Positions 16,927 to 40,203 of a DNA stretch of 40,467 nucleotides are shown here, one piece after another. Each line of letters opens with the position of its first letter. Position 1 is the first letter of the stretch. Origin of the DNA: Halorubrum californiense DSM 19288 (GTDB taxonomy: Archaea > Halobacteriota > Halobacteria > Halobacteriales > Haloferacaceae). The notes under the pieces are model-generated. The model was not told the origin of the DNA, made no database searches, and saw only the letters and a list, made by a program, of their open reading frames with translations. The stretch lies in the NCBI RefSeq assembly GCF_000336875.1, contig NZ_AOJK01000063.1, forward strand, positions 137,833 to 178,299, read 5' to 3'. Made by a program: the position numbers and the translations under genes.

Positions 16927-17085
16927 TCAGCCGAGACCGCGAACCAGGCCGACGACGAACACGATCAGAAACAGCGTCGCGAGGAGCAGCAGCACGGTGA
17001 GCTTCGTCCCCGACGCGCGTCGGAGGCCGCGCGAGCCCCCGCAGCATTTCCCGTCGCCCCCCCCCGAACGGATCGGCGCGTTCAC
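16927..17085 (-). CDS. Small single-span membrane protein, last gene of the SipW-like operon
   Basis: A 52-codon ORF starting with GTG at 17085 that overlaps the TGA of the upstream stalk-protein gene by four bases (GTGA), the same coupling seen at the other junctions of this operon. Residues 1-20 are Gly-rich with a Cys-Cys pair (GGGDGKCCGGSRG). Residues 27-50 are a basic flank and one strong membrane helix (TKLTVLLLLATLFLIVFVVG), then VRGLG. It is too short for most gene finders. The function is unknown; a peptidase accessory subunit or small anchor is possible from context only. Confidence 0.7.
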   Translation of the reverse strand: MNAPIRSGGGDGKCCGGSRGLRRASGTKLTVLLLLATLFLIVFVVGLVRGLG

Positions 17086-17759
17086 GGCAGACCCCCCGCC
17101 CGCGAGCGCTCCGACGCGGACAGTCGATCGACCGCGGCCGGCCCGGGGCCTACCGCGGTCAGCGGGGCCGACAGATCGCTCGCGTTCTCCGCGGTCGCCG
17201 ACTCGTTCGCCGCCGGCTCGCTCGCGCTTGCCGGCTGATTCGGCGCCGACTCGGACGGACTCGACGCGTTTCCGGCGTCCGACCCCTTCGCCGGCGGCGC
17301 GGGCTCGGGCTCCGGGCTGTCGACCGCCGGCTCCGAGGCGTTGCCGGTGGGCGCAGATTCGTTGTCGTCGGTGGGCGCAGATTCGTTGTCGTCGGTGGGC
17401 GCAGATTCGTTGCCGCCCGTGGGTCCGGAGACGTTGCCGTCGGTGGGTGCCGATGCGTTACCGGTGGGATCGGAGGCGTTACCTCCAACGGGCGACGAGT
17501 CGTTCCGCTTCGGTTCGGACGCGTTCTCCGACGGTGCGGTCCCGTTCCCGCCGCCGGATTTCGTCTCGTTCCCGCCGCCGGCCGCGAATTCGGTGTCGGC
17601 CGACTCGTCGATCTGGCGCAGTTCGTCCGGTGTCTCGAACGTCGTCGTCACGTTGACGCCCGCCGTGAGGAGCGCGACGGTGGCCCCGCCGGCGAACGCG
17701 ACGCCCCACACCAGCACGGCCAGCGCGACGAGCGCGACGAGCCTGCGGTTCGCGGTCAT
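17082..17759 (-). CDS. Sequon-rich membrane-anchored stalk protein
   Basis: 225-residue protein with one N-terminal membrane helix (residues 7-32) and then a low-complexity Asn/Ser/Pro/Ala/Asp ectodomain. I count 15 N-X-S/T sequons (NVT, NET, NGT, NAS, NDS, NVS and NES types), so heavy N-glycosylation outside the cell is expected. Three 8-residue repeats containing NESAPT stand in tandem. The ATG overlaps the peptidase stop by one base (TGATG), and the stop overlaps the small membrane gene. Such a stalk could span the S-layer or act as glycosylated matrix. I recognise no family. Confidence 0.75.
   Translation of the reverse strand: MTANRRLVALVALAVLVWGVAFAGGATVALLTAGVNVTTTFETPDELRQIDESADTEFAAGGGNETKSGGGNGTAPSENASEPKRNDSSPVGGNASDPTGNASAPTDGNVSGPTGGNESAPTDDNESAPTDDNESAPTGNASEPAVDSPEPEPAPPAKGSDAGNASSPSESAPNQPASASEPAANESATAENASDLSAPLTAVGPGPAAVDRLSASERSRAGGLP
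17346..17417 (-). repeat. 24-bp in-gene tandem repeat (3 copies)
   Basis: The plus-strand unit is GGTGGGCGCAGATTCGTTGT followed by CGTC, at 17346-17369 and 17370-17393 (identical) and 17394-17417 (diverged at its end). It encodes the NESAPT repeats of the stalk protein. The identity points to recent duplication, so stalk length may vary between strains. Confidence 0.85.
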
Positions 17760-18877
17760 CAGTCACCCTCCCCCGCGGGCTCCGGGTGCGGCGGCGTCGT
17801 CGCGGACACGTGGCGACTCGACCCGTCGGGCTCCGCCTCCTCGATGATCCCCTCCGTGCCATCGCTGTCGGTGTCCGCATCGCTCTCGCTCGCTTTCGTC
17901 CCGCTCTCGCTCGCTTCCGTATCACTCTCGTCCGCTTCCTCACCGCCCTCGCCGGCGGGCAGCCCGGCCTCGGCATCCCCACCGTCGGCGGCCGCGGCCT
18001 GTTCCGCCGTCTCGGCCTCGGGGGCTGCCGTCGCGCCCCGACCGCTCCGGTCGAGGACCCCGCTCGCCGGCACCCACTCCGCGAGCGCGCCGAGCAGGAG
18101 CGTCGACGCGCCGATCGCGACCGATATCGCGGCAGCGGTCCGGAGTTCGAGCGCGACGGACACCGCGTACGGGGCGAACGCGGCGAGCACCGCAGCCGCG
18201 CCGCCGACCGCGTCGACCGAGACCCCGCCGGGCTCGTCCGCCGCGTCCGCCGTCCCCGTCGGTTCGGCCGCGACCGCGGAATCGCTCTCCGCCGCCGGAC
18301 CCTCACCGTCGCTCGGCTCGTCCACGGGATCGACGGTCCTCGCCGGTTGCGGCTCCGAGTCGCCGCGCCCGCCGACGATCGACCAGATCTCCGTGACCGC
18401 GAGGAGGCCGAATGGCAGTAGGACCAGCGTGACGAAGCCGATCCGGGTGCCCGCGAACTGGATCACGTAGCCGATGTACGGGATCGTCAGCGTCACGACG
18501 CCGACGAGGCTCCCGGCGACGACGAGCCCCGGATCCGGTCCCTCGTTGGCATCGCCCATCGTCTCGAACGCGAGCGTGCCGGCCTCGTCGACCACGCTTA
18601 TGACGCGATGGGTCACCGGCACCTCGCTCGTGCCCCGGACGAACGTGATCACGTCGCCCTCGGCGATCGCCGTCGGGTCGCGCTCGGCGACGATCACCAC
18701 GTCGCCCGGCGCGATGGCGGGCGTCATGCTCGCCGTGAGCACGACGAAGCTCTCGTCGGCGCCGACGACCTCGGGGGCCGCGTACACCGCGAACGGCGCG
18801 ACGAGCGCGATCAGCAGGACGATACCGAGTACGTTTGCCGCGCGTTTCGTCCGTGGTGATGTGAGTAGTTGGATCAT
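17759..18877 (-). CDS. SipW/ER-type signal peptidase I with extra C-terminal membrane domain
   Basis: 372-residue signal peptidase. After an N-terminal membrane helix (about 14-34) come box B SMTPAIAPGDVVIV with catalytic Ser50, box D VTHRVISV with His90 in place of the bacterial Lys, and box E GDAN (108-111). The Ser/His dyad is that of archaeal, eukaryotic ER and Bacillus SipW enzymes. A second helix lies at about 122-160. An acidic linker is followed by two more hydrophobic helices (about 222-268) and a long acidic Ser/Glu/Asp tail, which an ordinary SipW lacks. It sits between genes for camelysin-like proteins, its likely substrates. Both ends overlap neighbours by one base (TGATG). Confidence 0.9.
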   Translation of the reverse strand: MIQLLTSPRTKRAANVLGIVLLIALVAPFAVYAAPEVVGADESFVVLTASMTPAIAPGDVVIVAERDPTAIAEGDVITFVRGTSEVPVTHRVISVVDEAGTLAFETMGDANEGPDPGLVVAGSLVGVVTLTIPYIGYVIQFAGTRIGFVTLVLLPFGLLAVTEIWSIVGGRGDSEPQPARTVDPVDEPSDGEGPAAESDSAVAAEPTGTADAADEPGGVSVDAVGGAAAVLAAFAPYAVSVALELRTAAAISVAIGASTLLLGALAEWVPASGVLDRSGRGATAAPEAETAEQAAAADGGDAEAGLPAGEGGEEADESDTEASESGTKASESDADTDSDGTEGIIEEAEPDGSSRHVSATTPPHPEPAGEGD

Positions 18878-19986
18878 CAGTTCTCCTCCGTGCCGCACAG
18901 CGGCTCGCCGTCCGTGGTCGCGGCCGCAACGATCTCGTAGAGCCCGCCGTAGACGTCGCCGACCCGGAGCGGGACCGAACAGCTCGTGTGGATGTTGACG
19001 CCCGCCTGACTCCCGCCGCTGTTTCCGTTGCCATTGCCGCCGCCGTTGCCGTTCCCCCCGCCACCGCCGGTCTCCGGATCGGCGCTCGCCCCGTCATCGA
19101 GGTAGATGTTGGGGCCGATCCACCCCGGGTCACCGGTGGTCGGCGAGGCGGTCCCGTCGATCACGAACGTCTCGTCCGGGGCCACGTCGCCGTCGAACAC
19201 GGTCGTTCCGCCGGTGCCGTTGCCGCCCGCGCCGCCGCCGGTGGCGACGACGACCACGGTCGCCGGGTCGTCGCCCAGGTACCGGAGCGTGAGCGACCCG
19301 ACCGCGACGCCGTTCTCGTCCTCGCAGGGGACGCACGCGGAGGCGCACTCGGTCCCCGCGAAGGGGTTCGACCCCGCGGCGTCGGCCTCGGAGACGTGAC
19401 GACACTGCTCGGCGTACAGTCGGAAGGTCAGATCGGTCTCCGAGCCGGCGACCTCGTCGGGCGCGTCGGCCGGGAGATACGGGGACACCTCGACGAGGAT
19501 CGAACCGCCGTCCGGACCGGCTTCAAGACACCCGTCGTCGATCCGTCGCCCGCCCGCGAGCAGGCGTTCGACCTCGTCGAGGGGCCGGTGGCCGTCCGTC
19601 AGCGGCTCACCGTCGACGACGACCTCGACTTCGAGGGCGTCCCCGAGCGGGTCGTCCTCAGGACAGTCCGTCGCGAGCCACACCCGCACTGGGTTCGCCG
19701 ACGCCCCTATCTCGAACGTCCCGGGAACGGGGCGCTCGTCGAACGTCGTCCGGTTAACGGGGAACGGACCAACGGTGACGGTCCCGTCGGTGGGGTTCCC
19801 GTCGACCGTCAGTCCGACCTCGCCCGCGCCGAAGACGTTGTTCGGGAACGCCTCCCGGTCCGCGAGGTACGCGCCCGTTCCGAGTCCGCTCGCCATCCCG
19901 ACTGCGCCGACGCCGCCGATCCCGGCGAGCAGGCGGCGCCGGCTCAGTCCGCTCGGGCGCCGTCCGTCGTCGCTGTCGGGGTTCAT
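18877..19986 (-). CDS. SipW-signal camelysin-like surface protein with Gly-rich region
   Basis: 369-residue secreted protein. The signal region carries LSRRRLLAGIGGVGAVG followed by GLGTGAYLADREAF and NNVFGAGEVGLTVDG, the pattern recognised by SipW-type peptidases (GLGTxAYFxDxE, then a TAGxLDL-like strand). A beta-rich core follows, with Cys pairs (ASACVPCEDENG) and the family element YAEQCRH (about 200). The C-terminal part has a Gly/Asn-rich linker (GGGGGNGNGGGNGNG) and a final Cys-containing segment. It overlaps the upstream gene by four bases (ATGA). Likely a fibre or matrix subunit, or a cap. Confidence 0.8.
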   Translation of the reverse strand: MNPDSDDGRRPSGLSRRRLLAGIGGVGAVGMASGLGTGAYLADREAFPNNVFGAGEVGLTVDGNPTDGTVTVGPFPVNRTTFDERPVPGTFEIGASANPVRVWLATDCPEDDPLGDALEVEVVVDGEPLTDGHRPLDEVERLLAGGRRIDDGCLEAGPDGGSILVEVSPYLPADAPDEVAGSETDLTFRLYAEQCRHVSEADAAGSNPFAGTECASACVPCEDENGVAVGSLTLRYLGDDPATVVVVATGGGAGGNGTGGTTVFDGDVAPDETFVIDGTASPTTGDPGWIGPNIYLDDGASADPETGGGGGNGNGGGNGNGNSGGSQAGVNIHTSCSVPLRVGDVYGGLYEIVAAATTDGEPLCGTEEN

Positions 19987-20765
19987 GCGGCCCCTCCGTC
20001 GGCGTCGGTCGAACCGCTCGCGTCGGACCCGTCGTCCATCTCGAAGGGGTTCCCCTCGGCGTCGCACTCGTCCGCGATGAACTCCACGTCGAAGTCGACC
20101 GCGCCGCCCTGCCCCGCGTTGCCTCCCTCGCCGTCGAACTCCCAGGCGAAGGTCAGGCAGCGCTGTTCGCCGGGGCCGAGGCAGCCGTCGCCGAGGAGTC
20201 CCGGGCGCAGTTCGACCCCGTCCGCGAGCGCGGAGCCGTCGATGTCCGCGAGCGTCTCGTCGGTGATCAGTTCCCCGGCGCTCGCGAACTCGCCCTCGGC
20301 GCCGCCGCAGCTGCCGATGCCGAATATCCCGGTGTCCTGCCGGACGGTGAGCGTGACGCGCTCCGCGAGCGCGGCGCTCGCGGGGTCGAGGCCGTCGAGG
20401 TCGGGGTCGACCCGCAGCCACACGCGGGCGGTGTCCTCGGGGTCTTCGAGTCGGAGCCCGACGCTCGCGGTCCCGCGATCGTGCGGCAGCGCGTTCTCGA
20501 TGTCGACGAGCCGGATTCCGGCCGCGTCGACGTCGTCGATCGCGCCGACCGGACTCGAATCGACCGCGGTCCCGTTCTCCGTGCGGCGCCACCCGACGAG
20601 CAGATTAAACGGCGTGTCGGTCTGGGCGTACGTGTAGTCGGTGTACTCGTCCCAGTTGTCCGTTCCCGTCTGGCGTCCGGAGGCGGCCCCGACCGCCGCG
20701 AAGCCGATGGCTCCGGCGCCCGCGAGTGCCTCCCGCCGCGTGAGTCTCGATTCCTTCTGTGTCAT
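19983..20765 (-). CDS. Camelysin-like secreted protein, first gene of the peptidase operon
   Basis: 260-residue exported protein. The N-terminus MTQKESRLTRREALAGAGAI is a Tat-type signal; the precise SipW motif is weaker than in its neighbours (DTPFNLLVGWRR in place of TAGxLDL). The core resembles the neighbouring camelysin-like proteins: EDTARVWLRVDPDLDGLDPA, LTVRQDTG, CLGPGEQRCLTFAWEF and VDFDVEFIADEC. The start at 20765 follows a spacer with the 20-nt shared element at 20829-20848, so this is probably the first cistron of a five-gene transcript extending to 16927. No sign of truncation. Confidence 0.78.
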   Translation of the reverse strand: MTQKESRLTRREALAGAGAIGFAAVGAASGRQTGTDNWDEYTDYTYAQTDTPFNLLVGWRRTENGTAVDSSPVGAIDDVDAAGIRLVDIENALPHDRGTASVGLRLEDPEDTARVWLRVDPDLDGLDPASAALAERVTLTVRQDTGIFGIGSCGGAEGEFASAGELITDETLADIDGSALADGVELRPGLLGDGCLGPGEQRCLTFAWEFDGEGGNAGQGGAVDFDVEFIADECDAEGNPFEMDDGSDASGSTDADGGAA

Positions 20766-20828
20766 TGTGTGTCGTTCCGGCTCCGGACGGCCGTGTCGTC
20801 GATACCCTACGTACTCCAACCGCGCTCG

Positions 20829-20848
20829 TATGTATGCGCGTCCTACCC
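20829..20848 (-). promoter_or_regulatory. Shared 20-nt promoter element, copy 1 (peptidase operon)
   Basis: On the minus strand GGGTAGGACGCGCATACATA, ending 63 bases before the ATG at 20765. Two near-identical copies occur at 26060-26079 (plus) and 27650-27669 (minus). CATACATA could serve as the TATA box, with the upstream GGTAG part as a factor-binding site. Confidence 0.7.
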
Positions 20849-20942
20849 GCCCGGCCCGGTGGCCGTACCCGAGCGGTACGAGCCACATACCGATCCGTCG
20901 CAGCGAAGCGATCGGCGGGCGGCCGTCCCGGCCGTCGTCGGA

Positions 20943-22652
20943 TCAGGCCGGCTGTTCGGGGCCCGAGCCGTCGTTATGGCGCGCCTGCTCGGTGTAGAAG
21001 CCGAGGTCGAAGCCGAGCGTGTCGCCCTGGACCCCGTTACCCACGCCGATCGGGAGCTCCCATTCGAGCGCGACGCAGTGCATCACGCCGTCGCCCGCGA
21101 ACGGGTCGCGGTTCTCGTCGTCGGCCGGATCGGTCAGCTCGTCGTACGGCGTCGAGCGGTTCCCGTCGAGCGGGATCCCGTCGCCGCTCTCGAGCTCGTC
21201 GAGCACGTCCGCGAGCGAGCCATCGACGATGACCTTCTCCCGTCCGGTCTGTGCCGCGAGGTTCCCGAACACCGAGGGAATGACGAGCGGGTCGTCGACG
21301 TCGTTGAAGAACGCCGGATCGCCGCCCGACCCCCCCGCGGGGCCGGCCATCGACGACAGCACCGCATCGTCCGCGCTCCCGACCGAAATCGTGTACACGT
21401 TGGTCGCGGGGTTCGGCGACGCCGCGCGGGCGTCGTCGGCCGCGTCCACGGGGTCGGAGAACTGGGTGCTGCCGGTCCCGTTGAACGACTCCCCGTCCGA
21501 GAGGACGATGTTCCGGAACTCGACGCCGCCGCGGCCGTTCGCGTCGAGTTCGGCCTGTGCGTCGTCGACGCCCTCGCCGATGTACGTCCCCGTTGCGATG
21601 CCGCTCGCGTTCGAGAACGGGTCCGCGTCGCTGTCGTCGACGTCGGGGTCGTTGTTCGTCCCGCTGACGACGTTCGCGATCTTCTTCCGGAGCCCGTCGA
21701 GCGCGTCGTCGACGTCGTTGAGGTCGGCGGTCAGCGACTGGAGGATCCCGGTCCTGGGCTCGGTGTCGCCGCTCCCCTCGCCGTCGAAGTACGCGACGCC
21801 GACCTGGACGTCCGACCCCTGCGACCCGAGGTAGTCGACGAACCGGCGGGTACCGAGTTCGACGAGGTCGATCTTCGTCGTCTCGTCGTAGGTACTCCCG
21901 CCCACCGTGATCTCGTCTCCGCTCACCACGCCGCCGAACTCCTCGTACAGCATCGAGCCCGAGAAGTCGAGCGTCAGCATGATGTCGACCGGCTCCGCGC
22001 CGTCATACACGTTGTCGCAGTCCTCGTCGTACCAGAGCGTCGCCTCGATGGCGTCGCCGAGGTCGCCGAGGTTGTCGGGGTCGACCGCCAGCTCGGGCTC
22101 GGTGGCCGTCCCGCCGTCGCCGTCGACCATGTCCGCCTGCATCCAGATGTAGCCGGGGTTGTCACAGAGGTGAAGCGAGAAGGTGATCTCGCCGGAGTCG
22201 CCGGGCTTCACGTCGGTGAGCTGGACGAGCGTCTCCATCTCTTCGCCGGTGACGGGGTCCGTCCCGAAGTCGGCCTCCGACAGCGGGGGGATGTTCTCGC
22301 AGTCCAGTATCGGGAGGTTCGCGCCGTTGCTGTCCTCGTCGGTGTCGTCCGGGAAGTCGCTGTAGCTGAACTCCGTGCCGTCGATCTCGACCGACTGCTC
22401 GCCGTCGCGGTCGTGGTCGGGGTGCGCGCTGACGAACTGCCGGCCCTCGCCGAAGTCGTACGTCTGTTGCCAGTCGACGAGCAGGTCGAGCTGCCCGGCG
22501 GTGAGGGTGTTGCCCTCGAACGACTCGGTGTCGTTGAAGTACGCCGTCGTGCCGAGGCCCGCCCCCGCGGAGGCCACGCCGACCGCGCCGAGGCCCGCCA
22601 GCACGGTCCGCCGCGAGAGTCCGATGGTGTCCTTGTTGTCTCTGTCTGTCAT
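20943..22652 (-). CDS. SipW-signal camelysin-like protein with inserted von Willebrand A domain
   Basis: 569-residue secreted protein. Residues 9-45 hold the Tat-like and SipW-type signal (GLSRRTVLAGLGAVG, GLGTTAYFNDTESF), then TAGQLDLLV. The camelysin core runs to WYDEDCDNVYDG (about 208-218). A von Willebrand A domain (about 222-470) begins VDIMLTLDFSGSM with MIDAS residues Asp229, Ser231 and Ser233 and the later LSDG Asp386. The core then resumes (KVIVDGSLADVLDELESGDG) and ends with FYTEQARHND. A VWA with intact MIDAS binds a divalent metal and usually a protein or glycan ligand, so surface adhesion is plausible. Third in a row of three paralogs on this strand. Confidence 0.88.
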   Translation of the reverse strand: MTDRDNKDTIGLSRRTVLAGLGAVGVASAGAGLGTTAYFNDTESFEGNTLTAGQLDLLVDWQQTYDFGEGRQFVSAHPDHDRDGEQSVEIDGTEFSYSDFPDDTDEDSNGANLPILDCENIPPLSEADFGTDPVTGEEMETLVQLTDVKPGDSGEITFSLHLCDNPGYIWMQADMVDGDGGTATEPELAVDPDNLGDLGDAIEATLWYDEDCDNVYDGAEPVDIMLTLDFSGSMLYEEFGGVVSGDEITVGGSTYDETTKIDLVELGTRRFVDYLGSQGSDVQVGVAYFDGEGSGDTEPRTGILQSLTADLNDVDDALDGLRKKIANVVSGTNNDPDVDDSDADPFSNASGIATGTYIGEGVDDAQAELDANGRGGVEFRNIVLSDGESFNGTGSTQFSDPVDAADDARAASPNPATNVYTISVGSADDAVLSSMAGPAGGSGGDPAFFNDVDDPLVIPSVFGNLAAQTGREKVIVDGSLADVLDELESGDGIPLDGNRSTPYDELTDPADDENRDPFAGDGVMHCVALEWELPIGVGNGVQGDTLGFDLGFYTEQARHNDGSGPEQPA

Positions 22653-22661
22653 GATTGTGAT

Positions 22662-22699
22662 TCCCCGAAGGGAGTCCCACCGACGGAGTCGAACCGTCG
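22662..22699 (-). other. Hairpins in the spacer upstream of the VWA gene at 22652
   Basis: A short stem TCCC/GGGA (22662-22665 with 22670-22673) and a 6-bp stem CGACGG/CCGTCG (22681-22686 with 22694-22699) lie just upstream of the start codon. The next spacer upstream (24146-24190) has the same arrangement with different stem bases. Confidence 0.5.
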
Positions 22700-22771
22700 T
22701 CTCGGCCGCCCGCGCGGGTCCGGAATGGGAGATGCGGTCACGCCGCCCGACGCGGCGGCGTATTCAGCACG

Positions 22772-24136
22772 TCAGTCGCTGAACTCGACCGCGTCGCTGC
22801 TGTCGTAGAAGTCCGGCCCGACGGTAGGGTCGGCGTTGACCTTCGCGACGGGGCCTCCACCGCCCGTGCTCCCGTACCCGAGCAGGCGGAACGTCGACGA
22901 GATCTCGGCGTTCGGAACCCCGAACAGGATCGTGTTCCCGACCTTCGACGCGACGAAGCCCGCCGGGAGCTGTTCGGTCGCGCCGTAGCTCCCGCCGTTG
23001 TTCGGCTGGTACCCGAACGGGTCGTCGGGGAAGCCGGCGTTCGGCTGCCAGATGACCTGCCAGTCGTGCGTGCCGTCCGCGTCCGCGTCGACGATGACGG
23101 GGAGATTCGTGCTGGAGTAGTCCGCCGTGTCCAAGAAGTCCACGCCGTCGCCGTCGTCGACGAAGGTGAAGCTCAGAACGGTCTGGTTCTGGCCGAACGA
23201 GACGCTGGTGTAGACGTTCCCGTCGGTGGGGTTCGCGATCGACGAGCCCTTCCAGTCGTTGTCGTACGCGGTGACGACCGTCTCGTCGACGCAGGGGTTG
23301 TGTGTCCCGTCGTTGTGACGCGACTGGACGGCGTAGAACTCGAAGTCGAATTCGACGGAGTCCGTCTGGATTTCGTTTTCGACGCTCGTCGGCACCTCCC
23401 AGCTGAAGCAGACGCACTGTTCGTCGACGTTCGGCTCGCCCTCGACGAACGGCTCCGCGACGCCATCGAACGCGGGGCGGTCCGCGAGCGACGCGCCCGA
23501 GTCGCCGTCGGAGGAGAGCGCGACGCCTGCTTGGAGCGCCAGCATGACCTCCGCCAGCGATCCGGAGACGATCTCGTCGCCGATCACGTTTCCGCCCTCG
23601 CCATCGTCGGTACAGTACGAGACGGTTACCTGCATCGCGTCGGCGAGTTCGCCCTCGCCGGCGATCAGCCCGTCGCTGTCGTCGCCGAGCTGGTTGGTCT
23701 CTCCCTCCGCACTTGCCTCGGGCTCGGAGACCGTGTTCTCGTCGTTCGCGGTCAGCTCACCGCACATCCACATGTACGCGGGATTGTCGACGATCGAGAA
23801 GCAGAACTCGCCCTCGCCGGAGTCGCCGGGCTTCAGGTCGGAGACCTGAATGCTGAGCGGCTCGCCGTCGGTCTGTTGGCCGTCGATCCCGACGACGTTG
23901 CCGTCGACGAACGTACCCGGCTCCGTCGAGTAATCCCCGTAGCTGCCCTGGTCCTCGGAGTAGTCGACGTGGACGAACAGGTCGAGCGATCCCGCCGTCA
24001 GCGTGTTGTTCTCGAACGTCTCCGTGTCGTTGAAATACGCCGTCGTTCCCAGTCCTGCGCCCGCGGAGGCGACGCCGACCGCCCCGAGTCCGACCAGCAT
24101 CTTGCGCCGCGAGAGTCCGATTTTGTCGTCGTTCAT
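22772..24136 (-). CDS. SipW-signal camelysin-like protein with C-terminal beta domain
   Basis: 454-residue paralog of its two neighbours without a VWA domain. The signal IGLSRRKMLVGLGAVGVASA is followed by GLGTTAYFNDTETF and TAGSLDLFV. The camelysin core contains SDLKPGDSGEGEFCFSIVDN, VTVSYC, SGSLAEVMLALQAG (at the site where the others carry the VWA) and FDFEFYAVQSRHND (about 263-276). Residues 286-454 are an extra beta-rich domain with Asp-rich possible Ca2+ sites (VDDGDGVDFLD, VDADADGTHDW) and a Gly-rich stretch. Several Cys may form disulfides outside the cell. Likely a structural subunit of the same surface assembly; spacer hairpins and lack of a TATA box suggest co-transcription with the upstream paralog. 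Confidence 0.85.
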   Translation of the reverse strand: MNDDKIGLSRRKMLVGLGAVGVASAGAGLGTTAYFNDTETFENNTLTAGSLDLFVHVDYSEDQGSYGDYSTEPGTFVDGNVVGIDGQQTDGEPLSIQVSDLKPGDSGEGEFCFSIVDNPAYMWMCGELTANDENTVSEPEASAEGETNQLGDDSDGLIAGEGELADAMQVTVSYCTDDGEGGNVIGDEIVSGSLAEVMLALQAGVALSSDGDSGASLADRPAFDGVAEPFVEGEPNVDEQCVCFSWEVPTSVENEIQTDSVEFDFEFYAVQSRHNDGTHNPCVDETVVTAYDNDWKGSSIANPTDGNVYTSVSFGQNQTVLSFTFVDDGDGVDFLDTADYSSTNLPVIVDADADGTHDWQVIWQPNAGFPDDPFGYQPNNGGSYGATEQLPAGFVASKVGNTILFGVPNAEISSTFRLLGYGSTGGGGPVAKVNADPTVGPDFYDSSDAVEFSD

Positions 24137-24145
24137 GATGTGTTG

Positions 24146-24190
24146 TCCCCAATGGGGAACTCCCGACGGCGGTCGCGAACCGCCGCGTCG
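24146..24190 (-). other. Hairpins in the spacer upstream of the gene at 24136
   Basis: TCCCC/GGGGA (24146-24150 with 24154-24158) and GGCGGT/ACCGCC (24168-24173 with 24179-24184), the latter extended by CGAC/GTCG past a two-base bulge. The arrangement matches the hairpins at 22662-22699 with changed bases on both sides of the stem. Confidence 0.5.
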
Positions 24191-24269
24191 GCCGCCCGAA
24201 GGCGCCGAAGCGGGAACCGGGCGCGTCGCCCGGGCGTGAGCGGGGTCTCCCCGCCCGAAGTCTCCGCGT

Positions 24270-25766
24270 CTAATTCGACACGTTGCCGGTGCTGTTGCTG
24301 GTCACGTTCGTCCCGTTGACCGACACGTCCGGGTTGTCGTTGTGCCGCGACTGCTCGGCGTAGACGCCGATGTCGAAGCTCACGGAGTCGGTCTGGACCT
24401 CGTTGCCGACCTCCGCCGGGAGCGTCCACTCGAAGCCGATGCACTGCGTGGTCGCGCCGGGGTACGGCTGCCGCTCCTCCTCTTGGCGGTCGCCGTTGAG
24501 CGCGACGCCCTCGGCGAGCTGGGTGAAGACCTCGGTCATCGTCCCCTCGGCGATCTTCTGTTCGCCGGCGAGGACGATCTGTGCGATCTCGGCGTAGACG
24601 GTATCGAGGTCGGCCGGATCGGGAGCGACGAACGCGTCGCCGGGGGTGGACGCGATGTTGTTCTCGAGGTAGGTCGTCGCGGCACCCGAGCCGAGCGCGA
24701 TGGTGAAGACGCGGATACCCGCGTTCTTCGCCGTCGTCGCGGCGGTCGTGGCCGCGCTCTGGCTGGACGGCTGGCCGTCGGTGAGGACGATCATCACCTT
24801 CGACGCGCCGGCCGTCGCGTTCGTCCCGGTCAGGAGCTCGGTGGACCCGGTGGAGATACCCTGACCCATGTCCGTCCCGCCGCCCGCGGTGTACAGATCG
24901 ATGGCGTCCTTGACCGACTGGTAGTTGGTCGTCAGCTCTTGGTCGAGAGTGGCCCCGTCGGAGAACGAGATGGCCGCCGCCTCGTCGGGGCTGGAGAGGT
25001 TGTCGACGAAGTCCTTCGCGGCGGACTGTAGGTCACCGATCTCCTGGGACATCGAGCCCGAGACGTCGCTGACCAAGGCGACTTCCAGTTCGTTCTGCTC
25101 GCCCGTGCCCGTGGGCTCGTACACGTTGTCGCAGTCCTCGTCGTACCAGACGCAGACCTCGATCGCGTCGGCCAGTTCGCCGATCCCGTCGGTGTCTTCG
25201 CCCTCCTCGTCCAGTTCGGGCTCGGACTGCCCGTTCTCCAGGTTCTCTGTGATCTCGCCCGCGAGGTACACGTACGCGGGGTTGTCACAGATGTGGAGAC
25301 TGATCGTCACTTCACCGGAGTCGCCGGGCTTCACGTCGTCCAGCGTGAACACCGGGATCCCGTCGCCGTTGACGAGGTACTGGTCGGCTTCGTCCGAACA
25401 GAAGCTGAAGTCTTCCTCTTCCTGTATGTAATTTTCCCACTCCTGCATGTCACCGGGGCTTGGGGCCTGCCCGAGCAGGTATTGCCCGTCGCCGAGGTCC
25501 TGTGCTAGGAACTCCTCATTTCCGCCACCGTACCCCATCGCCTGAATGTCGTCGAGACGGCCGGGGCCGCCCAGGTACGTCGACTTGTAGTCCAGCTTCA
25601 GGTCCAGTTCGCCCGCGGTGAGCGTGTTGCCCTCGAACGTCTCCGTGTCGTTGAAGTACGCCGTGGTGCCGAGTCCCGCACCCGCGGACGCAACGCCGAC
25701 GGCCCCGAGGCCGGCGAGCAGCTTGCGTCGCGAGAGTCCGATCGTGTCGTTCGTGTCTTGGCTCAT
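24270..25766 (-). CDS. SipW-signal camelysin-like protein with inserted von Willebrand A domain
   Basis: 498-residue secreted protein, first of three paralogs. The signal IGLSRRKLLAGLGAVG leads to GLGTTAYFNDTETF and TAGELDLKLDY. Core segments VTISLHICDNPAYVYLAGEI and VCVWYDEDCDNVYEP (about 204-218) precede a VWA domain (about 226-400) with a full MIDAS: Asp234-x-Ser236-x-Ser238 (SDVSGSMS), Thr298 (GGGTDMG) and Asp330 (VLTDG). The core then continues (KIAEGTMTEVFTQLAEGVAL) to YAEQSRHND. The last 18 residues hold four sequons (NGT, NVT, NST, NVS), so a glycosylated tail is likely. The start at 25766 (MSQDTND) is preferred to one ten codons upstream because it aligns with the paralogs. Confidence 0.9.
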   Translation of the reverse strand: MSQDTNDTIGLSRRKLLAGLGAVGVASAGAGLGTTAYFNDTETFEGNTLTAGELDLKLDYKSTYLGGPGRLDDIQAMGYGGGNEEFLAQDLGDGQYLLGQAPSPGDMQEWENYIQEEEDFSFCSDEADQYLVNGDGIPVFTLDDVKPGDSGEVTISLHICDNPAYVYLAGEITENLENGQSEPELDEEGEDTDGIGELADAIEVCVWYDEDCDNVYEPTGTGEQNELEVALVSDVSGSMSQEIGDLQSAAKDFVDNLSSPDEAAAISFSDGATLDQELTTNYQSVKDAIDLYTAGGGTDMGQGISTGSTELLTGTNATAGASKVMIVLTDGQPSSQSAATTAATTAKNAGIRVFTIALGSGAATTYLENNIASTPGDAFVAPDPADLDTVYAEIAQIVLAGEQKIAEGTMTEVFTQLAEGVALNGDRQEEERQPYPGATTQCIGFEWTLPAEVGNEVQTDSVSFDIGVYAEQSRHNDNPDVSVNGTNVTSNSTGNVSN

Positions 25767-26149
25767 GGTTTCTCCCCGACCCGCCCCGACGGGCACCCGA
25801 ATCGGTTACTTCCCCCTCCGATGGATACCCACGTAGTTAGGAGCAACCACGTCACCGTCGAACGACCGATTCCAACCGATAGAAGGTCTCTCAGAACCGA
25901 TCGAACGTCACCTTCGACCGGCGGTCCGTCGCCCCTACCGCGGTGACCACCGACCGCATGCGGTTCGTACCCACACCCCCGGTCGCGGCACGGGGGCCGT
26001 ACTCGCTGGTCGAATCCGGCAGGCGTCCCGTACTTTTCGGCTTCGAACGGGGCCTTCCCGGGTAGCCGGCGCATACATATCCCCTCGTCTGACGCAGGAG
26101 ACGGCAGAACTCGGGCGCCGCCGAGCGCGGCCGCCTGGAGCCCATCTCC
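25767..26149. promoter_or_regulatory. Divergent promoter region between the VWA paralog and the regulator
   Basis: 383 bases without a gene. The right half holds the shared element (26060-26079) for the plus-strand regulator. The left half holds GATACCCACGTA (25824-25835), which nearly matches GATACCCTACGTA (20801-20813) before the peptidase operon. The GC hairpin CCCG/CGGG lies close to the start at 25766. No ORF here looks like a protein. Confidence 0.5.
26060..26079 (+). promoter_or_regulatory. Shared 20-nt promoter element, copy 2 (regulator gene)
   Basis: GGGTAGCCGGCGCATACATA, ending 70 bases before the ATG at 26150. It differs from the other two copies only in the three-base middle and first base. 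If CATACATA is the TATA box, the mRNA has a leader of about 45 bases. Confidence 0.7.
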
Positions 26150-26680
26150 ATGAAACTCCGAAACGACGTACTTCCGGCCGAACAGGTGTACGCCATCCTC
26201 GCGAACGAGCGCCGACGGTGCGCCATCGAACAGCTCGGCTCCGCCGGCGGGACGGTCTCGGTCAACGAGCTGTCGACGCTCGTCGCATGCCGCGAGACGG
26301 GGGAGACCCCGCCGCCGAAGCGTTCTCGCGAGAGCGTGTACACCTCGCTGGTCCAGACGCACCTGCCGAGGCTGGCCGACGCGGGCGTGATATCGTACGA
26401 CCGCGAGTCGCAGACCCTCGAACTCTCGCGGCGCGCTCGCGACGTGCGCTTGTACACGGAGATTCTCGCGCCCGGCGGCGCGACGTGGTCGGAGCTGTAC
26501 CGCGCGCTCGCGGTCGGATCGCTCCTCGTCGTGCTCGCCACGCTCCTCGACGTCCCGCTCGTGTCGGCGGTCGATCCGGTGTTGTGGACCAGCCTCGCGC
26601 TCGGCGCCTTCGCCGCCGCCAGCGCCGTCCAGCTGTGGGTCAACCGCTTCTCGGTGCTCCGACAGCTGCGGCTTCGGTGA
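26150..26680 (+). CDS. Membrane-anchored winged-helix regulator (DUF7344 type)
   Basis: 176-residue regulator. Residues 8-95 form a winged helix of the haloarchaeal DUF7344 type: EQVYAILANERRRCAIEQLG, VSVNELSTLVACRE, ESVYTSLVQTHLPRLADAGV. After a short linker come two membrane helices (about 122-140 and 145-165), placing the DNA-binding domain at the inner face of the membrane. It is paralogous to the protein at 27891. It carries the shared promoter element and is divergent from the VWA paralog cluster, so it is a strong candidate regulator of the fibre genes. The target site is not proven. Confidence 0.85.
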   Translation: MKLRNDVLPAEQVYAILANERRRCAIEQLGSAGGTVSVNELSTLVACRETGETPPPKRSRESVYTSLVQTHLPRLADAGVISYDRESQTLELSRRARDVRLYTEILAPGGATWSELYRALAVGSLLVVLATLLDVPLVSAVDPVLWTSLALGAFAAASAVQLWVNRFSVLRQLRLR

Positions 26681-26726
26681 ATCGTCTCGACCACTGAAAC
26701 TCGAAACATCGCTCTTCTCCGCCGGC

Positions 26727-27623
26727 CTACTCGCTTCCGGCCGCGAGCGACGCCGGCAGCCGTAGTTCGAACAGCCGCGCGTCACAGCCCGCACAGCGAC
26801 CGGCGACCACGTCGTAGCTGGAACAGCAGGACTCGACGACGCGCTCCTCAAGGGCCACGTCCCCGGCGCAGGTCGGGCACTCCTCGACGAACAGCCGAAG
26901 GGCGCCGAGGGCCGCGCTCCGCTCGTCGAGCGGCAGACCCGCCCAGTCGCGGTCGCCCTCCGTCAGCACGCGGTCGGCCGCGACGTCGGCCCGGAACGCC
27001 GGCCGCGACTCCCAGTGACCGATCCGCTCGTCGCCGGCGTACGCAAACCCCGCGCCGCCCCGCCAGTCGATCGAGAGTTCGTCCCGGTCGAGCCCGGTGA
27101 GCCCCGCGAGCGCCGCGAGGTCGTCGCGGCCGTCCCTCGCCCCCTCGCCGGGCGTCGCCCCCGCCTCGCCTTCGGCCGCCGCCCGCCACGCCGCGGCGAA
27201 GTCGGGGGCGAACGCGAAGTCGTCGCTCGCGGGCGTCTCGACGAGGACGCCCGCGTCGTGGAGGTACGCCTCGGGATCGATCGACGCGTCTCCGGACGCG
27301 CCGGCTTCGACGCCGCCGGGCGCCTTGCCGAACAGCGCGAGCGCCCGCTCGGGGAGGTAGCGCTTCGTGAGTTCGGGCGTCCCGGGAACGAGGTACCCGC
27401 GGAGCCAGATGACCGCGAGCGCGCCGCCGAACCCGACCGCGCCGAGCAGCGGCGCGCCGACCGCGGCCGCCGCTCCCGCCCCGGCCGCCGCGATCACGAC
27501 GTTGACGGCCGTACACGGGAGACAGCGATTCGATCCGGTGTACTCGGGCCGCCGGAGCCGACCGACGGCGGCGAGCGCTGACTGTCGGAGGCGGTCCGAG
27601 TCGGTGTCTCGTGACGCGTTCAT
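26727..27623 (-). CDS. Cys-rich membrane protein co-regulated with the fibre genes
   Basis: 298-residue protein of unrecognised family. A Cys pair (NRCLPCTAVN, about 34-38) precedes two adjacent membrane helices (about 39-75). A soluble region follows (YLPERALALFGKAPGG, YLHDAGVLVETP) with an acidic Gly/Ala stretch. The C-terminus has a zinc-ribbon-like set: CPTCAGD, then VESCCSSYDVVAGRCAGCDARLFEL. Converging with the regulator at 26150. The start at 27623 lies 26 bases after the shared element at 27650-27669, which fits a leaderless mRNA, so the shared element doubles as promoter here. Possibly an assembly, redox or sensing factor; function unknown. Confidence 0.72.
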   Translation of the reverse strand: MNASRDTDSDRLRQSALAAVGRLRRPEYTGSNRCLPCTAVNVVIAAAGAGAAAAVGAPLLGAVGFGGALAVIWLRGYLVPGTPELTKRYLPERALALFGKAPGGVEAGASGDASIDPEAYLHDAGVLVETPASDDFAFAPDFAAAWRAAAEGEAGATPGEGARDGRDDLAALAGLTGLDRDELSIDWRGGAGFAYAGDERIGHWESRPAFRADVAADRVLTEGDRDWAGLPLDERSAALGALRLFVEECPTCAGDVALEERVVESCCSSYDVVAGRCAGCDARLFELRLPASLAAGSE

Positions 27624-27649
27624 ACCGGTCCGGACGGGACACGCCGACC

Positions 27650-27669
27650 TATGTATGCGCCGCCTACCG
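27650..27669 (-). promoter_or_regulatory. Shared 20-nt promoter element, copy 3 (Cys-rich protein)
   Basis: On the minus strand CGGTAGGCGGCGCATACATA. TACATA stands at about -27 from the ATG at 27623, the distance of a TATA box in a leaderless haloarchaeal gene. This suggests that the right end of the element is the TATA box itself. Confidence 0.7.
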
Positions 27670-27760
27670 CCTCCGACGCGCCGCTCGCCGAGCCGAAGCT
27701 CGTTACAGCGTTCGGACAAAAGTCAGTGACAGAGTCGCTCCTCACGCGTCTCGAATGTCT

Positions 27761-27890
27761 AAAAGAGGGTTGTAGGACACAAATAGCCACATTTCAACCA
27801 TCTATATTTCATCTACAAACCTCTCAGACTATAATAAGAAGTGATATATCCTCCAGAACGGATCGTACTCACTATATCTATGCGTGAGTC
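27761..27890. other. AT-rich island before the second regulator
   Basis: About 130 bases with far more A and T than the rest of the window (for example TATATTTCATCTACAAACCT, ACTATAATAAGAAGTGATAT). It contains several TATA-like strings, the closest to the start being ACTATATCTATG just before the ATG at 27891. It probably includes the promoter of that gene and may be a binding region for nucleoid proteins or a trace of transferred DNA. Confidence 0.6.
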
Positions 27891-28445
27891 ATGACACCAC
27901 ATATCACCAAACAGGCGGAATCGTCGGAGTCCGAGAGCGACGGCCCCTCGCGCGACGAGGTGTTCACGGCGCTGAGCAACCGGCGGCGTCGCAACGTCAT
28001 CAAGTACCTGAAGATCAACGGCGCCGAGTCGCGCGTCAGGGACATCGCCGAGCAGCTGGCCGCGTGGGAGAACGATGTCGAGATTCCGGCGGTGACGTAC
28101 AAGCAGCGCAAGCGCGTGTACACCGCGCTCCACCAGTCGCACCTGCCGAAGCTGGCGGCGAGCGGGTTCATCGACTACGAGTCGGACCGAGGGCTGGTGT
28201 CGCTCACCGAGGAGAGCCGACAGCTGGAAGTGTATCTGGAGATCGTCTCCGAGAACGAGATCCTCTGGGCCGAGTACTACGCGGGGCTCGCGGTCGTCTG
28301 CGGACTGCTGGCGGCGGCGGGGTGGACCGGGACCGCCCCGTTCGGCGTGGTCTCCGGGTACGCGTACGCGGCGCTTTTCGCGCTCGTGTTCGGGGCGTCC
28401 GGGATCGCTCACCGGGCGTCGACGAAGCGGAACCGGCTGGGATGA
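27891..28445 (+). CDS. Second membrane-anchored winged-helix regulator (DUF7344 type)
   Basis: 184-residue paralog of the regulator at 26150. An acidic N-terminus is followed by the winged helix DEVFTALSNRRRRNVIKYLK, RVRDIAEQLAAWEN and KRVYTALHQSHLPKLAASGF, then LVSLTEESRQLEVYLEI. Two membrane helices follow (about 126-143 and 148-170) and a basic tail (HRASTKRNRLG). Same topology as its paralog: a cytoplasmic DNA-binding domain tethered by two C-terminal helices. It is preceded by an unusually AT-rich promoter region without the shared 20-nt element. It may be the input regulator of the neighbouring fibre genes; this is inference from position. Confidence 0.85.
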   Translation: MTPHITKQAESSESESDGPSRDEVFTALSNRRRRNVIKYLKINGAESRVRDIAEQLAAWENDVEIPAVTYKQRKRVYTALHQSHLPKLAASGFIDYESDRGLVSLTEESRQLEVYLEIVSENEILWAEYYAGLAVVCGLLAAAGWTGTAPFGVVSGYAYAALFALVFGASGIAHRASTKRNRLG

Positions 28446-33818: not shown

Positions 33819-34259
33819 CGTCGGATTGGAGTGGTGGTGCGAGGCGTGCGCCTCGCGGGTGGCATCAATTCGGCCGCCGCCGACCGTACCGCGCGGTCAG
33901 GGGACGGCGAACCGGTGTCGAGAGCGGTCCGGGGGAGACCGTCACTCGCGTCGGTCGCGAGCGAGCCGTCTCCGCGTCGGGGTCACGCGGCGACGGCACC
34001 GAGGAGAGCGGTGACCGGTCCGCGGCCCCGTTTCCGGACGCTCCAGCGGGGGGCGAACGTGGGAGTGGGGTCGCGGACGGTCATGGATTCGACCCGGCGG
34101 CGGGGGACCGACCGGGCGTGTCACCACCGAGTGACGGAACCGAATTAATAGTTGCTTGCGTGTGAGACTCAATGGCGCGGTCGTTTCGCCGCGCCGATCC
34201 GGCCGACCGGCGCGCCCACCAGTACACTAAGGGAGGCGGGGCGCGTATCGCCGATAGAC
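33819..34259. other. Intergenic region before the antiporter gene
   Basis: 441 bases between divergent genes, with no believable protein. Near the right end the sequence GAATTAATAG (34143-34152) is a TATA-like box, about 110 bases before the GTG start chosen for the antiporter, so that gene may have a leader of about 85 bases. The rest is GC-rich and shows short palindromes only. Confidence 0.5.
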
Positions 34260-36116
34260 GTGTCCAGTAGCCTGCTACCGGTGATCGCGGTGATACTCGT
34301 GTCGGGGCTCGCGGTCCAGCTCCTCGCTCACCGGCTGCGCGTGCCGAGCGTCATCTTCTACCTCGCGATCGGCGTGGTGCTGGGGCCCGAACTGCTCGGG
34401 CTGGTCACGCTGGAGACGTTCGGCGAGGGGCTTGAGATCATCGTCGGCCTCAGCGTCGCGATCATCGTCTTCGAGGGGGCGTTCGCGCTCCGGATCGACC
34501 GGATCCGACGCGCGTCGACGGTGTCGCTCCGGCTGGTGACCGTCAGCGCGGTCGTGATGTTCCTCGGCACGGCGGCGGCGGTCCGCGCGTTCACGGACGG
34601 GACGTGGGAGATCGCGCTGCTTATCGGCGCGCTGCTGGTGGCGACCGGCCCGACCGTCATCACGCCGATCCTCAACGTGGTCCGGGTGCGAGACCACGTC
34701 GCGACCGCGCTGGAGACGGAGGGGATCGTCAACGACGTGACGGCCGCGATCGTCGCGGTCGTGATCTTCGAGACGCTGCTGCTCGACGACCTCGGCGTCC
34801 CCGCGACGGTGCTCTCGTTCGTCCAGCGGTTCGGCGTCGGCGTCGCGGCGGGACTGCTCGCGACGGTGACCATCTACCTGCTGCTGGACAGCGATTTCGT
34901 TCCCGAACGCGACGTACAGGCGTCGCAGTTCCTCGTCTTGGCGGCCGCGATCGGCTCGTTCGCCGCCGCCGAGGCCGTCGCCGCGGAGGCCGGCATCGCG
35001 GCGGCGGCGACGAGCGGGATCCTCCTCGGCAACCTCGACCTGGATAACCGCGAGGAGATCGAGCGGTTCGCCCAGAACACGACGCTCATCGTCCTCTCGT
35101 TCGTGTTCATCTCGCTCGCCGCGCTGATCGACGTGGAGGCCATCGCCGGGCTCGGCGTCGGCGTGATCGCGCTCGTCCTCGTCATCATGTTCGTCTTGCG
35201 GCCGCTGGGCGCGTTCATCGCGACCCTCGGCGTCGAGCGGTTCACCCGCCCGGAGCGGCTGTTCATCGCGAGCGTCGGTCCGCGGGGGATCATCCCGGCG
35301 AGCGTGGCGACGCTGTTCGCCATCGAACTGGAGCTCGCGGGGAGCATCGCCGCCGGCGAACTGCTCGTCGGCACGGTGTTCGCGGTCATCTTCGCGACGG
35401 TCATCGTCGAGGCGGGGTTCGCGCGACAGATCGGAGAGTTCCTCGGAGTGTCACCAATGCGCACGATAATCATCGGCGGGGGTCGGGTCGGCCAGGCGCT
35501 CGCCACGCGACTGGAGAACAGGGGCGAGTACGTCGTCGTCGTCGAGACGGACCCGGACGTCGCCGAGCGGGCGCGCGCGGAGGGATTCACCGTCTACGAG
35601 GGGGACGGCAGCGACACGGAGACGCTGCGCGCCGCCGACATCGGCGACGCGAAGCGGTTCATCACCACGACGGCGGACGACGACATCAACCTCCTCGCGT
35701 GTCAGCTCGCGCTCACCAAGTTCGACGTCGCGTCGGTGTACTCGCGGGTGAACGACCCGGACAACGTCGACGCCTTCGACAGCATCGGCGTCACCGGCAT
35801 CGACGCCACGACGGCGACCGCGGTCGCCATCGACGACGAGATAGAGCGCCCCGCGCTCACCCACTGGATGAACGAGCTCGGCGACAGCCACGACGTTCAG
35901 GAGGTGGAGGTGACCTCCCGGGAGTTCGCGGGCAAGACGATCCGGGACCTCAACGCCCAGATCCCGGACGGAACCTTCGTCGCCGTCGTCAGCCGCGACG
36001 GCGAGAACCGCGTCCCGTCGGCGGACACTGTCCTCGAAATCGGCGACCACGTGACGTTTATCGGCGACACGGGGGCGGTCCGTCAGGCGATGGACCGGTT
36101 CCACCCGCACGATTAA
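34260..36116 (+). CDS. Cation/proton antiporter fused to an RCK (TrkA) regulatory module
   Basis: 618-residue fusion. Residues 1-395 are a CPA-type antiporter (NhaP/KefC-like) with about 12 membrane helices. RVPSVIFYLAIGVVLGPELL is typical of helix 2-3 and VATGPTVITPIL holds the ion-binding region. Residues 400-520 form TrkA-N (MRTIIIGGGRVGQALATRLE with the nucleotide-binding GxGxxG-like core, then VVVETDPD and EGDGSDTETL). Residues about 540-618 are TrkA-C. Such proteins exchange K+ or Na+ for H+ and are gated by nucleotide or ions. Start: a GTG at 34260 begins VSSSLLPVIAVIL, the natural first helix; in-frame TTG upstream at 34152 is an alternative. Confidence 0.9.
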   Translation: MSSSLLPVIAVILVSGLAVQLLAHRLRVPSVIFYLAIGVVLGPELLGLVTLETFGEGLEIIVGLSVAIIVFEGAFALRIDRIRRASTVSLRLVTVSAVVMFLGTAAAVRAFTDGTWEIALLIGALLVATGPTVITPILNVVRVRDHVATALETEGIVNDVTAAIVAVVIFETLLLDDLGVPATVLSFVQRFGVGVAAGLLATVTIYLLLDSDFVPERDVQASQFLVLAAAIGSFAAAEAVAAEAGIAAAATSGILLGNLDLDNREEIERFAQNTTLIVLSFVFISLAALIDVEAIAGLGVGVIALVLVIMFVLRPLGAFIATLGVERFTRPERLFIASVGPRGIIPASVATLFAIELELAGSIAAGELLVGTVFAVIFATVIVEAGFARQIGEFLGVSPMRTIIIGGGRVGQALATRLENRGEYVVVVETDPDVAERARAEGFTVYEGDGSDTETLRAADIGDAKRFITTTADDDINLLACQLALTKFDVASVYSRVNDPDNVDAFDSIGVTGIDATTATAVAIDDEIERPALTHWMNELGDSHDVQEVEVTSREFAGKTIRDLNAQIPDGTFVAVVSRDGENRVPSADTVLEIGDHVTFIGDTGAVRQAMDRFHPHD

Positions 36117-36367
36117 CAGGTCGGTCAGATCGTCCGTGGGGTGGGGATGACAGGCCCTAAACCCAGTCCTGAGGGCGACATACGGCCCACTACGCTCGCC
36201 GTTTGGTGTCTCTGAAAAGTCCTGACGGAGTCCCACGCGAGCGGTGCGAGGGCGACCGAAGAGAGCCCTCGACAGTGAGCGGCGAAGCCGCGAACGAGCG
36301 AGCGTGGGGCAAGTCAGAACGTGAACGCAGCGGCTATCGAACGAAGTGAGACAGCCGCAAGGTGAAC
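36117..36367. other. Structured spacer bounded by tRNA-Arg 3'-end repeats
   Basis: 251 bases between the antiporter gene and tRNA-Arg, without an ORF. It includes a 12-base copy of the tRNA 3' end (36219-36230) and three stem-loops: CGAGGGC/GCCCTCG (36247-36253 with 36265-36271), GCGGC/GCCGC (36279-36283 with 36287-36291) and GCGGCT/AGCCGC (36330-36335 with 36353-36358). CCCACGC/GCGTGGG also pair across the left half. Confidence 0.6.
36219..36230 (-). repeat. Partial copy of the tRNA-Arg 3' end
   Basis: GTCCTGACGGAG matches exactly the first 12 plus-strand bases of the tRNA gene (36368-36379), i.e. the tRNA's 3' acceptor end. The two copies are 149 bases apart. A third, weaker match (AGTCCTGAGGGCG) lies near 36161. 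Confidence 0.7.
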
Positions 36368-36439
36368 GTCCTGACGGAGATTTGAACTCCGGTCCCTGGC
36401 TCCGCAAGCCAAGAGGATAGTCCACTACCCTACCAGGAC
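36368..36439 (-). tRNA. tRNA-Arg (anticodon GCG)
   Basis: 72-base tRNA on the minus strand. Acceptor GTCCTGG pairs with TCAGGAC (one G-T). The D arm is GGGT...ATCC, the anticodon arm is TTGGC-TTGCGGA-GCCAG giving anticodon GCG (reads CGC and CGU), and the T arm is CGGAG-TTCAAAT-CTCCG. CCA is not encoded. A CTTATGTTC box lies 22 bases upstream. Confidence 0.93.
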
Positions 36440-38700: not shown

Positions 38701-39705
38701 ATGCGGTTCGGCTACAGCGACCGGTGTCTCGACCACGACACCGGCGAACGACACCCGGAGAACCCGGATCGGCTCCGCGCGATCCGCCGCGGGCTCACCA
38801 AGCGCCACGGCGTCGAGTACGTCGAGGCCGACCCCGCGGAGAAGGCGGCGATCACCGCGGTCCACGACGACGAGTACGTCGACGAACTGGAGTCGTTCGT
38901 CGCCGACGGCGGCGGGAGCTGGGACCCCGACACCGTCGCCAGCGACGGGACGTGGGACGCGGCGCTCACCGCCGCCGGCCTCGCCCAGTGGGCGGCCCGC
39001 GAGGCGCTCGACGGGGCTACTGGCCGACAGACGCCGTTCGCGATCGGCCGCCCGCCGGGTCACCACGCCGTCACCGACGACGCGATGGGGTTCTGCTTCT
39101 TCAACAACGCCGCCGTCGCCGCACAGACGGCGATCGACGAGGGCCTCGCGGACCGGGTCGCCATCTTCGACTGGGACGTCCACCACGGCAACGGGACGCA
39201 GGACATCTTCTACGACAGCGAGGACGTCTTCTACGCGTCGATCCACGAGGACGGACTCTACCCCGACACGGGCGCGCTCGACGAGACCGGCGAGGGAGAC
39301 GGCGAGGGGACCACCGCGAACCTCCCGCTGGCGGCCGGGGCCGGCGACGCCGACTACCTGTACGCGGTCGACGAGGGGATCACGCCTGCCGTCGACCGGT
39401 TCGACCCGGACCTGTTCATCGTCTCGGCCGGATTCGACGCGCACCGCCACGACCCCATCTCGCGGATGCGCGTCTCCTCCGAGGGGTACGCGCTGTTGAC
39501 CGACCGGATCCGGACGCTCGCCGCCGACGTCGGCGCGGCCGACGCGTACGTCTTGGAGGGCGGTTACGGGCTCGACACGCTCGCCGAGGGCGTCTCGATG
39601 GTCCATGAGACGTACGACGGGCGGACCCCGGTCGATACCGACGAGGAACCGGACCAGAAGACTGAGGCGCTCGTCGACGACCTCCGGGCGGAACTGGACC
39701 TGTAA
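38701..39705 (+). CDS. Histone deacetylase-family amidohydrolase
   Basis: 334-residue zinc-dependent deacetylase of the class I/II/AcuC fold. RPPGHHAVTDDAMGFCFFNN (117-136) has the catalytic His121-His122 pair. FDWDVHHGNGTQD (156-168) gives zinc ligands Asp159 and His161, and SAGFDAHRHDP the third Asp ligand. VLEGGYGLDTL is the C-terminal glycine-rich signature. The ATG follows the histone stop with no gap, so the two are co-translated. Substrates in haloarchaea are uncertain; acetylated proteins such as the histone or other lysines are candidates. A T-rich stretch (TCTCGTTTTTCTCTC, 39731-39745) after the stop may end the transcript. Confidence 0.94.
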   Translation: MRFGYSDRCLDHDTGERHPENPDRLRAIRRGLTKRHGVEYVEADPAEKAAITAVHDDEYVDELESFVADGGGSWDPDTVASDGTWDAALTAAGLAQWAAREALDGATGRQTPFAIGRPPGHHAVTDDAMGFCFFNNAAVAAQTAIDEGLADRVAIFDWDVHHGNGTQDIFYDSEDVFYASIHEDGLYPDTGALDETGEGDGEGTTANLPLAAGAGDADYLYAVDEGITPAVDRFDPDLFIVSAGFDAHRHDPISRMRVSSEGYALLTDRIRTLAADVGAADAYVLEGGYGLDTLAEGVSMVHETYDGRTPVDTDEEPDQKTEALVDDLRAELDL

Positions 39706-39968: not shown

Positions 39969-40100
39969 GAAATCAGACGTGTTCGCTCACTCCGTTCGCT
40001 GCGCGCGACTGATAGGGTTCAAATCCCCACGTCTGCGTTCGTCGACGCCGGACTCGCTCGTCGCTGTCGCTCCTCGCTCGTAGTCGGCGCCGACAGAAGC

Positions 40101-40172: not shown

Positions 40173-40203
40173 AAACAAGCGACAGCGCCCCGAAACCGGG
40201 GAC

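Follow-up and report, generated by a model that had tools for sequence, protein, structure and literature searches.

Fibres of the TasA/camelysin kind with a SipW-like peptidase have precedents in Bacillus and, for the fibre itself, in Pyrobaculum. In the matrix operon of Bacillus subtilis (tapA-sipW-tasA) the mature N-terminus of TasA, AFNDI, is the donor strand, and F29 and Q232 are among the most conserved residues of the protomer interface (PMC10151520). Bacillus cereus (sipW-tasA/calY/capP) carries several camelysin-type proteins beside one SipW, and these form mixed filaments (PMC13082335). The AbpA bundling pili of Pyrobaculum calidifontis are an archaeal, TasA-related donor-strand fibre (PMC9674648, PMC10151520). 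In Halorubrum ezzemoulense, islands 4 and 5 carry a peptidase and VWA proteins and are found as alternatives to one another between conserved core genes; a pan-genome study described them as homeocassettes of unknown function and listed them under 'adhesion/signaling' (PMC11078007).

The locus described here is from Halorubrum californiense DSM 19288 and lies in a window of 40,467 nucleotides, by which the whole stretch of DNA analysed is meant (contig NZ_AOJK01000063.1, nt 137,833–178,299). In common with the B. subtilis operon it has predicted TasA-like beta-sandwich subunits, the x-F-(S/N)-D mature N-terminus, a SipW-like peptidase within the operon, the LKPGD and N..QG...F.A.Q motifs, and counterparts of interface residues F29/Q232. 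Found only on the haloarchaeal side are Tat (RR) signals, multiple paralogues at a single locus, VWA inserts, a DUF7467 protein, a long peptidase extension and putative DUF7344 regulators, whereas a TapA counterpart was not identified here and the peptidase falls below the Bacillus SipW cut-off. The locus resembles that of B. cereus in combining several camelysin-type proteins with one peptidase and differs from it in export signal and regulators; the B. cereus paper mentions neither VWA domains nor an archaeal homologue (PMC13082335). AbpA, compared by description only, is alike in being an archaeal TasA-related fibre, and the profile match to AbpX was weak (E 0.13). The H. ezzemoulense islands share the genus, the peptidase with VWA proteins, a proposed surface-type function and the divergent cassettes between conserved core genes; although PMC11078007 gives no TasA, SipW or fibre reading, islands 4 and 5 are, judged by description, probably this locus. 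The first-pass annotation, which knew of no described system with this VWA combination, had thus overstated its novelty. A search of the open-licence literature found no paper describing the locus as a system and no mention of DUF7344, and no VWA protein or signal peptidase is named in the main text of a paper on the biofilm proteome of Halorubrum lacusprofundi. What sets the present locus apart is the predicted Tat export, the VWA inserts, the set of D, E and DUF7467, the neighbouring DUF7344 genes and a spread across the haloarchaeal class. We put at roughly three in four the probability that the locus specifies a TasA/camelysin-type fibre on the cell surface, Tat-exported, triggered by its peptidase and assembled by donor strands, with variable and VWA-bearing subunits.

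Eight packed genes (A–H) form a minus-strand operon (nt 25766–16927), bordered on one side by the divergent DUF7344 gene R1 and on the other by a ZIP transporter gene (16834–16037, −) (Table 1). The D/E, E/F, F/G and G/H pairs overlap or abut by 1–4 bases. Upstream of the operon are the gene for a Cys-rich membrane protein, which matched no Pfam family, and the second DUF7344 gene (R2), followed by mutS. Secreted proteins, a Ser/His peptidase, overlapping genes, a sequon-rich stalk, tiny and Cys-rich membrane proteins and two DUF7344 genes had been reported as contiguous by the first-pass annotation, and all lie where it had placed them or close by. Weak HTH matches suggest that R1 and R2 are of the winged-helix type. 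The locus has no protein annotated as a type IV pilus assembly ATPase, platform protein or prepilin peptidase. Gene G encodes 15 Asn sequons (3.0 in shuffles), with 24-bp tandem repeats (17345–17463) specifying sequon units, and by these features its product looks like a glycosylated stalk; the repeat number may vary from strain to strain. Elsewhere in the window are a Na+/H+ exchanger fused to TrkA_N/TrkA_C domains (34152–36116, +), a histone-deacetylase-like protein (38701–39705, +), a pair of equally scoring tRNA genes separated by about 30 bases (40100–40275, −), and a third tRNA at 36367–36439.

Table 1. Genes of the locus and its upstream neighbours, numbered by position in the window.
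Feature	Position	Strand	Length	Description	Evidence
A	24270–25766	−	498 aa	VWA subunit	PF00092 6.7e-21, TIGR04088 6.9e-8
B	22772–24136	−	454 aa	TasA-like core, no VWA; C-terminal beta domain variable between species	PF12389 above cut-off, TIGR04088
C	20943–22652	−	569 aa	TasA-like core with larger VWA-like insert	TIGR04088 5e-7, PF00092 2.3e-4 (just below cut-off)
D	19983–20765	−	260 aa	TasA-like core, Tat signal, no SipW-type donor-strand site	core HMM E 1.4e-18
E	18877–19986	−	369 aa	Short TasA-like core with C-terminal DUF7467	PF24269 8.8e-9
F	17759–18877	−	372 aa	SipW-like archaeal/ER-type signal peptidase I	TIGR02228 4.5e-28, SEC11A/C 8e-18
G	17082–17759	−	225 aa	N-terminal membrane segment and Asn-sequon-rich low-complexity stalk	sequon count, tandem repeats
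H	16927–17085	−	52 aa	Tiny membrane protein, start overlapping end of G; weakly conserved	ORF, hydropathy 24–52
R1	26150–26680	+		DUF7344, putative winged-helix protein; C-terminal membrane segments; divergent from A	PF24035 3.1e-25
Cys-rich membrane protein	26727–27623	−		CPTC and CAGC motifs	conserved neighbour
R2	27891–28445	+		Second DUF7344 protein; membrane segments	PF24035 9.6e-29

The N-termini of A, B and C (RRKxLxGLGAxGxASAGAGLGTTA/YFNDTExFxxNxLTAGELDL) join a Tat twin-arginine motif to a SipW-type cleavage region, with cleavage of A expected at GTTA/YFNDTE and Phe at P2'. TIGR04088 scored above cut-off in A, B and C (hmmscan), and was borderline in E (13.7 alone; 18, or 19 with its neighbours). 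All four credible TIGR04088 matches of the genome fall within this locus. The earlier proposal of five secreted proteins with SipW/Tat-type signals stands for A, B, C and E, which carry the combined signal, and not for D, which has a Tat signal only. Among the core proteins of named haloarchaeal loci, the site G-T-x-A-x-F-(S/N)-D is present in 168 of 173 and the twin arginine in 171 of 173; 34 of 50 E proteins have the site, whereas 48 of the 49 D orthologues are without it (present in one). The haloarchaeal site corresponds to the mature N-terminus of TasA, which is the donor strand there (PMC10151520).

Alignments were built from unchanged haloarchaeal sequences and the structure of mature B was predicted from them (AlphaFold/AF2) as a monomer, a form in which strand exchange cannot appear. 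The model (pLDDT 80.6, pTM 0.83; residues 1–9 disordered) returned a single PDB match with E<0.001 in Foldseek, the cryo-EM TasA fibre 8aur (E 7.7e-6, probability 1.00). The model of E (pLDDT 78, pTM 0.57) also gave 8aur first (E 4.1e-3, probability 0.99), with the donor-strand pilins CfaB, PapG and FimG among the matches that followed. Profile–profile alignment (hhalign) between the mature core and TasA proteins from Bacillota gave 97.0%, or 93.9% once signal and donor strand were removed and 99.0% with the signal still included; 20 column shuffles reached at most 1.4%. The E core aligned with that of B at 99.6%, and with TasA at only 2.5% by sequence alone, so its TasA-likeness, weak at the sequence level, rests on the link to B and the modest Foldseek match (4e-3). 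TasA residues F29 and Q232 have near-invariant counterparts in F2 (mature numbering) and Q238 (A2 numbering), the latter aligned with Q232 and forming the Q of F-x-A-E-Q-x-R-H-N-D. Comparison of predicted folds with TasA had been named at the outset as a test of the idea, and for B the TasA-type beta-sandwich holds as the predicted fold, with E leaning likewise. The C-terminal beta domain of B is only 13–29% identical between species outside close relatives; a further match of the B model, to CBM9 (1i82, E 3.9e-3), is taken to be this domain.

The core HMM built on B aligns to A and C on either side of the VWA domain, which places that domain within a hairpin, between two strands of the core, and not at an end. 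The VWA domain of A (residues ~226–404, 75.7 bits) has a complete MIDAS motif (DVSGS, T, D). In C, where core segments 2–103, 83–185 and 186–278 of the HMM surround the insert, the MIDAS motifs (DFSGS, T, D) are present but PF00092 scores 21.9 bits against a cut-off of 23.8. To our knowledge, no VWA or Tat version of AbpA-type bundling pili has been reported.

The peptidase F scored 98.1 bits with TIGR02228 (cut-off 51.85), has an active site of invariant Ser50 and His90, and has predicted membrane segments as well as a long, acidic extension at its C-terminus. Against the Bacillus SipW equivalog NF046067 it reached 93.9 bits, short of the curated cut-off of 190, and by these profiles it classes as SipW-like yet outside the Bacillus SipW limit. 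A tree of signal peptidases separated the haloarchaeal enzymes from bacterial SipW (98/94), but the long branches L099, L166 and L179 make it unsafe and no claim of transfer is drawn from it. Of 292 Halobacteria genomes, 141 encode an F-like peptidase and 134 have SipW-type signals; both are present in 133, the peptidase alone in 8 and the signal alone in one (Fisher p 3e-72, a value that ignores shared ancestry). This near-total co-occurrence supports a dedicated peptidase–substrate pair, as had been proposed from the linkage of the genes. Absence from half of the Halobacteria genomes means that the peptidase is not essential, and in the same genus seven genomes are without both peptidase and SipW-type signals. 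One genome (G194, contig C19, 4807–5220) retains a peptidase fragment with an internal stop and no SipW-type substrate was found in it, an apparent joint decay.

The prediction that gene order would be conserved in other haloarchaea was borne out, the gene set being syntenic across Halobacteria in most of more than 110 loci; this recurrence, together with the excess of sequons in G over shuffles, argues that the locus is not a chance assemblage. In two locus sets with enough upstream DNA, whose shares are biased because the sets partly overlap and were chosen by peptidase similarity, core subunits were present in 54/58 and 53/53 loci, VWA subunits in 35/58 and 41/53, D in 44/58 and 46/53, E adjoining F in 38/58 and 34/53, a divergently oriented upstream DUF7344 gene in 50/58 and 47/53, and the Cys-rich membrane protein in 36/58 and 28/53. 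The module varies: subunit number ranges from 0 to 6 per locus, some loci lack D or E, and eight genomes have the peptidase without a substrate match. Simple core proteins of ~200–260 aa are also found in other groups of the phylum. Some Halorubrum genomes hold a second, diverged peptidase–camelysin cluster elsewhere (L166, L085, L149; for example, H. coriense contig 58). A search for R2 in five genomes of the same genus without the locus returned only paralogues of 32–40% identity. Across 18 Halorubrum loci the flanking genes are conserved (median identities of 92% for mutS and 89% for ZIP) while medians for the locus genes are 68–81% with a wide spread, and only 47% for G, a divergence that fits exposed, diversifying proteins and agrees, too, with the alternating islands of the H. 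ezzemoulense pan-genome (PMC11078007). Between Halorubrum species, A, B and C (20943–25766; relatives L036–L053) show mosaic identity, as if swapped singly.

The divergence of the locus genes would also be expected if the TasA-like proteins were surface adhesins or receptors, trimmed by F and acting as monomers or small complexes, in which the core merely displays the VWA, CBM-like and DUF7467 domains. These additional domains vary and resemble display modules, the subunits (medians of 68–77%) diverge far beyond the flanks (89–92%), and such islands were classed under adhesion/signalling in PMC11078007. However, the conserved residues F2 and Q238 belong to the fibre interface, and the presence at one locus of several paralogues that share a donor motif suits co-polymerisation, so this explanation is considered unlikely. 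Chance placement of one more general signal peptidase beside genes for secreted proteins would account for the match of F to TIGR02228, a general archaeal model, and the genome does hold three further genes of signal-peptidase type; it is a very improbable account given that 133 of the 141 genomes with the enzyme also have SipW-type substrates and that in G194, where no substrates were found, the enzyme is interrupted by a stop.

A protease function was suggested by PF12389 (Camelysin metallo-endopeptidase), whose gathering score of 22.5 bits is exceeded by B (26.2) and not by A (19.4) or C (20.6), and which matches 48 of 57 homologues at E 0.01. At E 0.001 the family had no match over the whole genome, though single proteins score near the cut-off. 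Most of the match falls on the signal and donor strand, the nearest relative among solved structures is a structural protein of a fibre, and HExxH is absent from A–E and from 272 related proteins. A camelysin protease role was rejected on this last ground, and camelysin-type metalloproteases are an exceedingly improbable reading of the secreted proteins.

The Tat pathway transports folded proteins. On the preferred reading of a donor-strand fibre, A, B, C and E would be exported by Tat (RR motif) already folded, their signal peptide and donor strand still connected; the locus was first described as self-contained, which claims too much, as Tat translocation is needed. F, as a membrane Ser/His peptidase, would cut just before the x-F-(S/N)-D segment and free the donor strand, which outside the cell would complete the beta-sandwich of the next subunit. 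Cleavage would then be the polymerisation switch. The product may be a mixed fibre of B-type subunits with exchangeable C-terminal domains and of VWA-bearing subunits, whose MIDAS motifs could allow metal-dependent adhesion. D, having the core but no donor site, is a candidate cap or anchor. G, as a glycosylatable stalk, and H are putative surface accessories, and the divergent DUF7344 membrane proteins may control expression.

A wider form of this proposal is held more tentatively, with the odds leaning slightly against it: a class-wide archaeal fibre whose subunits fold inside the cell and leave by Tat, the signal peptide holding back the donor strand until a dedicated peptidase acts, and whose mixed filaments combine MIDAS-VWA domains inserted in the TasA core with interchangeable side domains and differ among strains. 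Such divergence between strains suggests involvement in virus attachment or in contact between cells. If the proposal is true, TasA-type biofilm fibres would extend to a large, culturable group of archaea, the placing of VWA domains inside the fold of TasA would represent a novel route to an adhesive fibre, and the haloarchaea would offer a clean test of whether subunits that fold before Tat export can build donor-strand fibres, assembly being switched on by signal cleavage.
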